From an uncultured Sphingobacteriaceae bacterium (GTDB lineage: Bacteria > Bacteroidota > Bacteroidia > Sphingobacteriales > Sphingobacteriaceae): DNA of 64,000 nt. The notes under the pieces were generated by a model. That model worked only from the letters and a program-made list of their open reading frames with translations. It had not been told where the DNA came from and searched no databases. Of this stretch, positions 60,325-64,000 are shown in pieces. Made by a program: the position numbers and the translations under genes. The stretch spans positions 36,735 through 100,734 of the forward strand of contig CAMLLO010000016.1 in assembly GCA_946480915.1 (NCBI GenBank). Reading direction: 5' to 3'. Numbering within the stretch: the stretch's first letter is position 1; the number at the start of each line of letters is the position of its first letter.

Positions 60325-62598
60325 ATGCAGAAATTAATTTTAGGGCTCTCTATTTTGTTTATTGTTTTTGGTTTAAAATCTCAGGGACAAGTAAAAAACA
60401 CAACTAATTACACCTCTTATTTCTCAAAACAAGATATAATTTTCGACTCCCTACCTAATAATTGGGAAGAAGGTGCTTTTCTTGGCAACGGCCTGCTTGG
60501 TGTAATGGTTTATGGGGAAGATGCTAACAGTATTCGCTTCGACTTGGGGCGGACCGATGTGGTAGATCATTTAGAAGGTGTAAACCCATCCATTGGACGG
60601 GCAAGAATGCCAATAGGGAAATTCCTGCTTAGTACAAGTGGTGCTATTAAAAAGATAAATCTTCGACTGGACCTATATAATGCCGAACTTAACGGCACAA
60701 TTACTACCGATAAGGGAACTATCCAGTTTCAGGGCTTAATTGCAGCTGGCCAAGACGTAATTATATTTAATACCTCTTCGGAAAAGAATGAAAAGTTATT
60801 CAGTTGGGAATGGCGGCCCGAAAAAGCTATAAGTCCTTTTTTAACACTTGGACGTGATGATACTTTAAAATATAAAGCTAATCCACCTTTTAAGACAATT
60901 AAGGAAGATAATATAAACTATAACTACCAGGCTTTGCTTGCCGGGGGAAGTTATACTACAGCCTGGAAAGAAATACAAAATAACAATAGGCACACCCTGT
61001 TAATTACTATTGCCAATACCTATCCAGTTGATGAATCTAAAATGCAGGCGGCGAAAGTATTAAACTCGGTTAAGCTGGAATCCTTACCCGAAATAATTTC
61101 AGACCATAGAGCTCATTGGAACCGTTTTTACGAAAAGAGTTTTATTTCTCTCCCAGATAGGCGCCTAGAAAGTTTTTGGTGGATCCAGCAATATAAAATG
61201 GCTTCTGCTACGCGAGTTGGGGCCTATCCAATTGATTTAATGGGCCCCTGGTATAGAATAACTCCCTGGCCGAAATACTGGTGGAACTTAAATGCTCAGC
61301 TCACATACTATCCTTTTTTTAGTTCAAATCATATTGAACTGGTAAAGCCATTTATGAAAATGATTAACGATAACCTGGACAACCTTATAAAGAATGCTCC
61401 TGAACCTTATCAATACAATTCTGCGGCCTTAGCGAGGTCTGGGCCATATACCATGACCTCAGGGATACGTGTATTAAAAGGTAATGATGGTTCCAGCGCT
61501 AGTGCATCTTCTATGGAACTGGGGAATTTAACATGGTTGCTTCACGTTTACTGGCAAGCTTATGAGTATACAATGGATAAAGAAGTAATGAGCAATATTT
61601 ACCCTGTTCTAAAACGGGCCATTAATTATTATCTTAATATAATGGATAAAGAAAAGGACGGAAAATACCATCTGCCTTATACCTATTCTCCCGAGTATCC
61701 TAAAGGAATTACAAGAGATGCTAATTATGATTTATCAAGTTTAAGATGGGGAGCAAAAACCTTGCTTTATATCAATGAACAATTGCATTTAAAGGATCCA
61801 TTAGTCCCGGGATGGAAGGATGTCTTACAGAATTTAACTCCTTATCCTCAGGATGAAAAAGGATACAGGATTGGTCGCGATGCCGATTTTTCAATATCTC
61901 ACAGACATTATTCACATTTATTGCAAATCTATCCTTATTATGACATTAACTGGGATCAGATGGAAAATAGAGATTTGATTACACGGTCGTTGGAGCAATG
62001 GGAAAAAGATGATTCTGCATGGAGGGGTTATTCCTATACTGGCTCGGGATCTATTTATGCTATGATGGGCAATGGAAATAAAACCCATCAACTTTTGAAT
62101 AAAATGATGGTGGGAAGATTTGCAATTAAGCCAAATACTATGTATTTGGAAGCGGGACCGGTAATTGAAACCCCGCTTTCTGCTGTTACTACCATCAATG
62201 AAATGTTAATACAAAGCTGGAATGGAACCATACGGGTGTTTCCGGCAGTTCCGGATGCCTGGAAAGAAGCATCCTTTGATAATTTACGTGCAAAGGGTGC
62301 CTTTTTGGTAAGTGCGGTTCGTAAAAATGGTAGAACAGAATTCATCCGCATCAAAAGCCTTGCTGGTTCGGCTTGCCTGATAAAAAGCGATTTAACAACT
62401 AACGCGGTGGCGAAAGGTAATAGAAAGTTTTCCCTGACACATAAGGGAAATGGAGTGATTGCGATTGACTTAAGGAAAGGTGAAGAAGTAATTCTTCATC
62501 AGTCAGACTACACAGGAAACTTTGTGATTCAGCCCGTTGGCAGTAAAGATGAAATTAACACATGGGGCTTACTCAGAGTTCCTTCCACAAATAATTAA
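60325..62598 (+). CDS. GH95-like alpha-L-fucosidase / alpha-L-galactosidase
   Basis: This 757-residue exported protein has a signal peptide ending KSQGQ. The N-terminal domain has WEEGAFLGNGLLGVMVYG, diagnostic of GH95-type proteins. The (alpha/alpha)6 barrel has WWNLNAQLTYYPFF, and HRHYSHLLQIYPYYD matches the conserved His-containing closing helix; a beta-sandwich with NGTIRVFPAVPDAW follows. GH95 enzymes remove alpha-1,2-L-fucose or L-galactose by inversion. The sequence is divergent, so substrate is uncertain. It follows the broken beta-helix gene and precedes GH2 by 9 bases. Confidence 0.8.
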   Translation: MQKLILGLSILFIVFGLKSQGQVKNTTNYTSYFSKQDIIFDSLPNNWEEGAFLGNGLLGVMVYGEDANSIRFDLGRTDVVDHLEGVNPSIGRARMPIGKFLLSTSGAIKKINLRLDLYNAELNGTITTDKGTIQFQGLIAAGQDVIIFNTSSEKNEKLFSWEWRPEKAISPFLTLGRDDTLKYKANPPFKTIKEDNINYNYQALLAGGSYTTAWKEIQNNNRHTLLITIANTYPVDESKMQAAKVLNSVKLESLPEIISDHRAHWNRFYEKSFISLPDRRLESFWWIQQYKMASATRVGAYPIDLMGPWYRITPWPKYWWNLNAQLTYYPFFSSNHIELVKPFMKMINDNLDNLIKNAPEPYQYNSAALARSGPYTMTSGIRVLKGNDGSSASASSMELGNLTWLLHVYWQAYEYTMDKEVMSNIYPVLKRAINYYLNIMDKEKDGKYHLPYTYSPEYPKGITRDANYDLSSLRWGAKTLLYINEQLHLKDPLVPGWKDVLQNLTPYPQDEKGYRIGRDADFSISHRHYSHLLQIYPYYDINWDQMENRDLITRSLEQWEKDDSAWRGYSYTGSGSIYAMMGNGNKTHQLLNKMMVGRFAIKPNTMYLEAGPVIETPLSAVTTINEMLIQSWNGTIRVFPAVPDAWKEASFDNLRAKGAFLVSAVRKNGRTEFIRIKSLAGSACLIKSDLTTNAVAKGNRKFSLTHKGNGVIAIDLRKGEEVILHQSDYTGNFVIQPVGSKDEINTWGLLRVPSTNN

Positions 62599-62607
62599 TA
62601 AATAAAA

Positions 62608-63953
62608 TTGAAACGATTTAGCTTTATTTTCTTTTTCGCTGCACTCATTTGCAGTCAGGTATCAGTTGCACAACAGAAAAGACGTTTAATTAATGATTGG
62701 CAGTTTGTTAAACAGGACTTAGGTGGAATATGGGAAGCAGTGAGGCCTGTAAAAGTTGGCAATCCTGAAGATGTGCCCGCATGGCAAAAAGTAACCTTAC
62801 CACATTGTGTAAATGCCGAAGATGCCGTTGATCCGGATTTGAATTATTATCAGGGGCCAGCCTGGTATCGTACACAACTAGAAATAAACAATCCTAACCG
62901 GAAGGGGAGAACTCTTTTGCATTTTGAAGGTGCTGGTCAAAAAACCGAAGTGTATGTTTATACGACCAAGGTAGGGTCGCATGTTGGTGGGTATGATGAG
63001 TGGACAGTAGATATTACAGATGCCGTTGAGTCATTCAAAAAAACGGATGTTTTTAAGGATCAGTTTAAAGGAAAGATTCCCGTTTCTATTCGTACGGATA
63101 ACAGCAGAGATTTGGAAATGATGCCTTCCGACCTATCTGATTTTAATTTATATGGCGGACTTTATCGTTATGTAAATCTCATTTATGCGCCTGCTCTTTC
63201 TATTGATAAAGTGTTTGCTACTGCAGAAGTAGATAAAGCCGGGAGAAATGGAAGTCTATCCGTAAAAACGCGATTGTATAATCCAATAAATGTTTCTTCA
63301 GCCACAGCTGAAATCAGGCTTATTGATCCAAAAGGAAAAGTAATTCATCGAGCAACTAATAAATTATCTTCCTTAAATGGAGATATTTCTCTTGCTAATT
63401 TTCATGTAAAAAACCCGCAGCTTTGGTCTACTTATCAACCTGTGCTGTACGCTGTTGAAGTTAGTATTAAAAGTCCTCAGGGTATATTTACTCAAAGAGA
63501 GAAAATTGGTTTCCGCAATTTTGAATTTGTGGAGAAGGGTCCTTTTATGTTAAACGGAAAACGTCTTTTATTAAGAGGAACCCACCGACATGAGGATCAT
63601 GCCGGAGTAGCTGCGGCCATGACAGAGGAACAGATTCGTACCGAAATGAAGATGATGAAGGAGATGGGTATTAATTTTATCCGTTTAGCACATTATCAAC
63701 AATCACGAATTGTTCTCGAATTGTGTGATAGTCTCGGAATAACTGTATGGGAAGAAATTCCCTGGTGTCGGGGTGGTTTAGGTGGCGAAGTTTATAAAAA
63801 TCAGGGCCGCAGAATGTTAACCAACATGATTGAACAACATTACAATCATCCATCGGTAATTATCTGGGGTTTAGGCAATGAAAACGACTGGCCCGGAGAT
63901 TTTCCCACTTTTGATCAAGAGGCAATCAGAACTTACATGACCGAATTGAATGA
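62608..63953 (+). CDS. GH2 beta-glycosidase (beta-galactosidase type), truncated by contig end
   Basis: The first roughly 449 residues of a GH2 enzyme are present, from a TTG at 62608 with a signal peptide ending SVAQQ. The sugar-binding jelly-roll (WQKVTLPHCVN, YQGPAWYRTQL, LHFEGAGQKTEVYV) and the immunoglobulin-like domain are complete. The TIM barrel starts at MLNGKRLLLRGTHRHEDH and reaches the acid/base Glu in IIWGLGNENDW. The nucleophile and C-terminal domains are missing. The frame then runs into adapter sequence, giving a false tail DRKSTRLNSSHDE and a false stop at 63994. The true gene is probably 800 or more codons long. Confidence 0.9.
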
Positions 63954-64000
63954 AGATCGGAAGAGCACACGTCTGAACTCCAGTCACGACGAATGATCTC
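63954..64000 (+). other. Illumina adapter contamination, not genomic
   Basis: From 63954 the sequence reads AGATCGGAAGAGC and continues through the TruSeq read-1 adapter to 63987. An 8-base index position (63988-63995, GACGAATG) and the first bases of the flow-cell primer (ATCTC) follow. It is assembly residue at a contig end and should be trimmed. Confidence 0.97.

Follow-up and report, generated by a model that had tools for sequence, protein, structure and literature searches.

The GH2 gene and its setting

The window (the whole 64,000-nucleotide stretch of DNA analysed here) ends within a gene of glycoside hydrolase family 2 (GH2) whose open frame continues into bases of a synthetic sequencing adapter. 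The features at this end are as follows.

60325-62598: GH95-like gene, identified by a Pfam search, between the SusD-side genes and the GH2 gene
62608-63953, plus strand: genuine part of the truncated GH2 gene, 448 whole codons and the first two bases of codon 449; its start resembles a signal peptide (Pfam GH2 domains; homology to 80 loci up to codon 448)
63952-63993, plus strand: false C-terminal residues 449-462, EDRKSTRLNSSHDE (translation; comparison with relatives)
63954-63987, plus strand: TruSeq i7-side adapter stem, 34 bases, synthetic, its first A at the A-tail position (34/34 identity to the oligonucleotide)
63988-63995, plus strand: index-sized 8-mer GACGAATG, a probable i7 sample index in the slot between the stem and P7
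63994-63996, plus strand: false stop codon TGA, composed of two bases from the end of the index and the base that opens P7 (sequence and translation)
63996-64000, plus strand: first five P7 bases, ATCTC (match to the start of the P7 sequence)

A Pfam search started with the window protein identifies Glyco_hydro_2_N (34.6 bits, cut-off 28), Glyco_hydro_2 (50.7 bits, cut-off 23) and Glyco_hydro_2_C (86.7 bits, cut-off 21), all above their thresholds, which places the fragment in glycoside hydrolase family 2; the match to the TIM barrel (Glyco_hydro_2_C) covers only profile positions 3-137 of 302. The motif GNEN, which we take to be the GH2 acid/base site, is found at residue 423. The motif HVEWGG, presumably the candidate nucleophile region, occupies position 507 in the closest relative, from Paradesertivirga mongoliensis (L121), and thus would lie beyond the break in the window copy. 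Assignment to NCBIfam NF050095 (beta-glucuronidase LacZ4) was rejected, with scores of 241.8 bits for the fragment and 318.7 bits for the intact P. mongoliensis protein, both below the curated cut-off of 950 bits.

The gene order in the window, putative SusC-like and SusD-like genes, a gene for a 246-aa protein without a Pfam match and then the GH2 gene, is the same in P. mongoliensis (protein identities 74%, 78% and 75%), which indicates that the GH2 gene is genuine and stands in its expected setting up to the join. A tblastn search finds no relative of the GH95-like gene at the P. mongoliensis locus; such a relative is present in 5 of 80 related loci, including one (L128, 68% identity) where it immediately precedes the GH2 gene.

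The stretch from 15558 to 64000 is a long run of genes for the degradation of plant polysaccharides of a pectin-like kind, with three Alpha_L_fucos proteins, two GH28, one GH88, one GH97, a GH36-type and an alpha-galactosidase-type melibiase, an altronate/galactarate dehydratase and the GH95-like and GH2 genes; the whole has the appearance of a single large utilisation locus from a Sphingobacteriaceae-like bacterium. No tRNA genes and no Rfam families at the gathering threshold were found in the window.

The adapter string and the false end of the gene

Comparison of positions 63954-63987 with the TruSeq i7-side adapter oligonucleotide AGATCGGAAGAGCACACGTCTGAACTCCAGTCAC shows identity at 34 of 34 bases. 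The 34-mer has a single exact match within the window, the next best placements having 15 mismatches on the plus strand and 13 on the minus strand, and about 1.2e-16 chance copies are expected given the window base composition. The window ends in the layout ...GAATTGAATGA / AGATCGGAAGAGCACACGTCTGAACTCCAGTCAC / GACGAATG / ATCTC, the stem being oriented outwards and the string extending to the window edge at 64000, so that five bases of P7 are visible after the 8-mer. The sequence-only reading of the last 47 bases as TruSeq adapter, index-sized 8-mer and primer bases is therefore borne out, with all three parts present in that order. By established library design, this order, spacing and orientation of stem, index and P7 are those of a Read 1 that leaves a short insert. 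The other probes (the i5-side adapter, the full 24-base P7 tail, P5, Nextera, small-RNA and one PhiX sequence) have no exact match on either strand of the window. The right edge of the window is very likely the end of the contig.

Translation of the frame from TTG 62608 across the join yields 462 residues ending in ...MTELN-E-DRKSTRLNSSH-DE-stop, and so verifies the in-frame false tail DRKSTRLNSSH that had been read from the sequence. Since the adapter does not close the frame and index and P7 bases together form TGA, gene-calling software would report a complete protein of 462 residues, the gene looking complete even though its end and its stop codon are both synthetic. The break falls inside codon 449 (63952-63954), which consists of genomic GA and one A that belongs to the adapter, so the last fully genomic codon is 448. 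Among the best 80 of 272 related loci, the corresponding codon begins with GA in 56 and encodes D in 54 and E in 2, which suggests that E449 is probably false as well. The earlier statement that annotation is wrong past residue 449 accordingly stands with regard to the false tail and needs correction in its starting point, because annotation is unreliable from residue 449 itself onward.

Tracing of the index did not tie GACGAATG to any library in viral contigs or in the literature searched. The end of the stem followed by GACGAATG and ATCTC occurs in 0 viral contigs, and the corresponding primer string has no match in the literature searched; the 8-mer alone matches 26 papers, and the 20 of these that were listed look unrelated as far as titles and the beginnings of abstracts indicate.

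Continuation of the gene in intact relatives

A genome scan with the 448 genuine residues yields 348 matches to the pattern; related loci number 272, and the 80 best of them form the comparison set. The closest of these 80 is the P. mongoliensis locus, with 82% identity over residues 1-448, and the alignment extends to residue 448 in 80/80. After codon 448, the relatives continue with ordinary GH2 sequence (e.g., DLSHKLDPSRKTAI and variants; for one locus, L180, no continuation was read). The ungapped residue agreement over the 80 loci falls from a mean of 9.2/14 before the join to 0.1/14 (maximum 2) after it, and the terminal 47-mer agrees with the corresponding bases of the relatives at 9.5 of 47 positions on average and at no more than 14. 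Thus, homology ends at the join where the relatives go on in GH2 sequence, in agreement with the sequence-only description of the protein as a truncated chimera.

The continuation that this reading had proposed to look for in related genomes is a gene of 819 in-frame codons from the aligned start in P. mongoliensis (821 residues from an upstream GTG); the median read-through length of the 80 relatives is likewise 819. In addition to DUF4982 (59.0 bits against a cut-off of 23.9), the P. mongoliensis protein shows a weak C5 match that, at 28.7 bits, falls short of the cut-off of 32; both are absent from the window copy, from which about 370 residues, including DUF4982, are therefore missing.

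When the fused protein is aligned by MAFFT with 79 relatives (L180 was left out of this set of 80, its frame reading having stopped early), residues 449-462 show an average agreement of 0.335, with the tail spread over distant columns; we read this value as an effect of global alignment and prefer the ungapped count of 0.1/14. One locus (L160) shares a 14-mer with the 47-mer, which is taken as chance. The adapter tail is present in 0 of the 120 homologous GH2 proteins listed (120 of 2302).

Two of the relatives have peculiarities of their own. At the Hymenobacter roseosalivarius locus (L180), the reading of the GH2 frame stops at about residue 215, yet the tblastn match reaches residue 448, as would be the case with a frameshift, a stop or a gap. 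A GH2 protein whose name assigns it to Candidatus Dadabacteria (P0012) is 68% identical to the Sphingobacteriaceae-like gene of the window, which suggests that the respective metagenome-assembled genome contains a misassigned contig.

Adapters elsewhere and the origin of the tail

Viral contigs carry the stem in 120 stretches or more, with 121 matches (80 of the 120 are listed, and 62 of those listed are whole contigs). No more than 50 bases follow the stem in 92/121 matches and no more than 250 in 120/121; the post-stem stretch is shorter than the pre-stem one in 120/121, the exception being a 280-base locus (L069). On the 62 whole contigs, the contig end is no more than 50 bases away for 48 of the 63 matches and no more than 250 away for 62. 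Among the 81 viral-contig matches followed by 13 or more bases, 71 show exact ATCTC after a spacer of 6-8 bases and 10 do not show it exactly. One match (L013:3889-3922) is internal, with 1257 bases after the stem, the sole such case among the listed whole viral contigs; this contig may be a chimera joined through the adapter.

The stem is rare in the genomes searched (0/2; 3/395 in the phylum of P. mongoliensis; 1/301 in its family; 4/685 distinct genomes in total). All 11 matches in Bacteroidota genomes have 10-42 bases after the stem; within their length, these bases comprise a spacer resembling an index and sequence resembling P7 (with mismatches in L211). Eight contigs of a single genome (G068, L203-L210) end in the same adapter with the same 8-mer, ACTGATAT, which points to an untrimmed library.

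The tail peptide recurs in proteins. Among the 121 viral-contig matches, open frames of at least 100 codons enter the stem 18 times each in the DRKSTRLNSSH and RSEEHTSELQ phases and 14 times in the early-stop phase. A protein database search with the tail in its 6-base-index form, padded with X (E up to 10; one size range), matched 3011 proteins, and all of the 120 listed contain DRKSTRLNSSH, in accord with the earlier remark that such a tail can be recognised in protein databases. The tail is preceded by 118 different 10-letter strings in these 120 proteins, at least two of which (P0127 and P0129) begin with it, and many carry unrelated Pfam domains. One database protein (P0121) contains the tail peptide several times in tandem. 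Among the papers searched with adapter-derived peptides, none naming the tail was found.

These observations are best compatible with adapter read-through left in the assembly as the source of the last 47 bases, at a probability of roughly 0.96. The library fragment would have been shorter than the read, with its end at 63953 within the GH2 gene; Read 1 would then have continued over the A-tail and into the TruSeq i7 adapter, the index and the start of P7, and, if left untrimmed, could have been used by the assembler to extend the edge of the contig, which presumably coincides with that of the window. The sequence identity, the order of the parts and the frame are directly observed, as are the end of homology at the join and the recurrence of this arrangement at the ends of other contigs; counted against read-through are the lack of a library link for the index and the L013 contig, which demonstrates that internal adapters do occur.

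The latter case bears on a different reading, in which the adapter is artefactual and internal, the contig continuing past the window edge as two unrelated fragments joined through it. The window is a fixed 64,000-base cut, and 1 of the 63 stem matches on whole contigs (those among the 80 listed) is of this kind, but 62 of the 63 lie within 250 bases of a contig end, all 11 genome matches are followed by 42 bases or fewer, and the window, like many of those contigs, breaks off partway through P7, so that such a join appears quite improbable. Genuine genomic sequence, with a naturally truncated GH2 gene and a tail that is adapter-like by chance, would agree with an open frame closed by a stop codon; it is at odds with the exact 34-base match to a synthetic oligonucleotide (about 1.2e-16 chance copies expected), the break inside the TIM barrel, a 47-mer unlike any of the 80 relatives (at most 14/47 bases) and the absence of the tail from all 120 homologues listed among 2302 proteins. 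Its probability is vanishingly small, and natural truncation is refuted for practical purposes.

With read-through as the preferred reading, the feature belongs to a well-known type of sequencing artefact, already explained and without biological novelty. Its importance is limited to data hygiene: the GH2 model should be treated as partial, the last 47 bases should be trimmed and no function should be assigned to the tail, the peptide serving as a quick flag for the same fault elsewhere. It appears likely that in-frame adapter tails, in the window closed by a stop of index and P7 bases, give truncated proteins a complete look and are numerous in protein collections (3011 matches for one tail form in one size range) and that the tail could systematically flag broken gene models and their source libraries. 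Adapter contamination and screening have long been known, VecScreen and NCBI screening being mentioned in PMC10898089 and PMC7218494.

Among GH2 proteins of known structure, PDB entries 6d7j and 6dxu (deposited as Beta-Glucuronidase and as glycosyl hydrolase family 2, TIM barrel domain protein) are close to the window protein; residues 21-447 of the window protein align with 6d7j_A (E 1.4e-187). The sugar-binding, Ig-like and TIM-barrel Pfam domains follow in the same order, but the window copy ends inside the TIM barrel and has lost the remainder of the barrel and DUF4982, both present in the intact P. mongoliensis protein. The terminal 47 bases share with Illumina TruSeq adapter read-through at the ends of other contigs the same stem, the outward direction and the stem-index-P7 order, and with the known read-through tails the in-frame DRKSTRLNSSH. 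The window differs from those cases only by its index, the 8 bases GACGAATG, which shift the frame into TGA; the tail form with a 6-base index that was used in the search reads on into P7, whereas the tail in the window stops at TGA.
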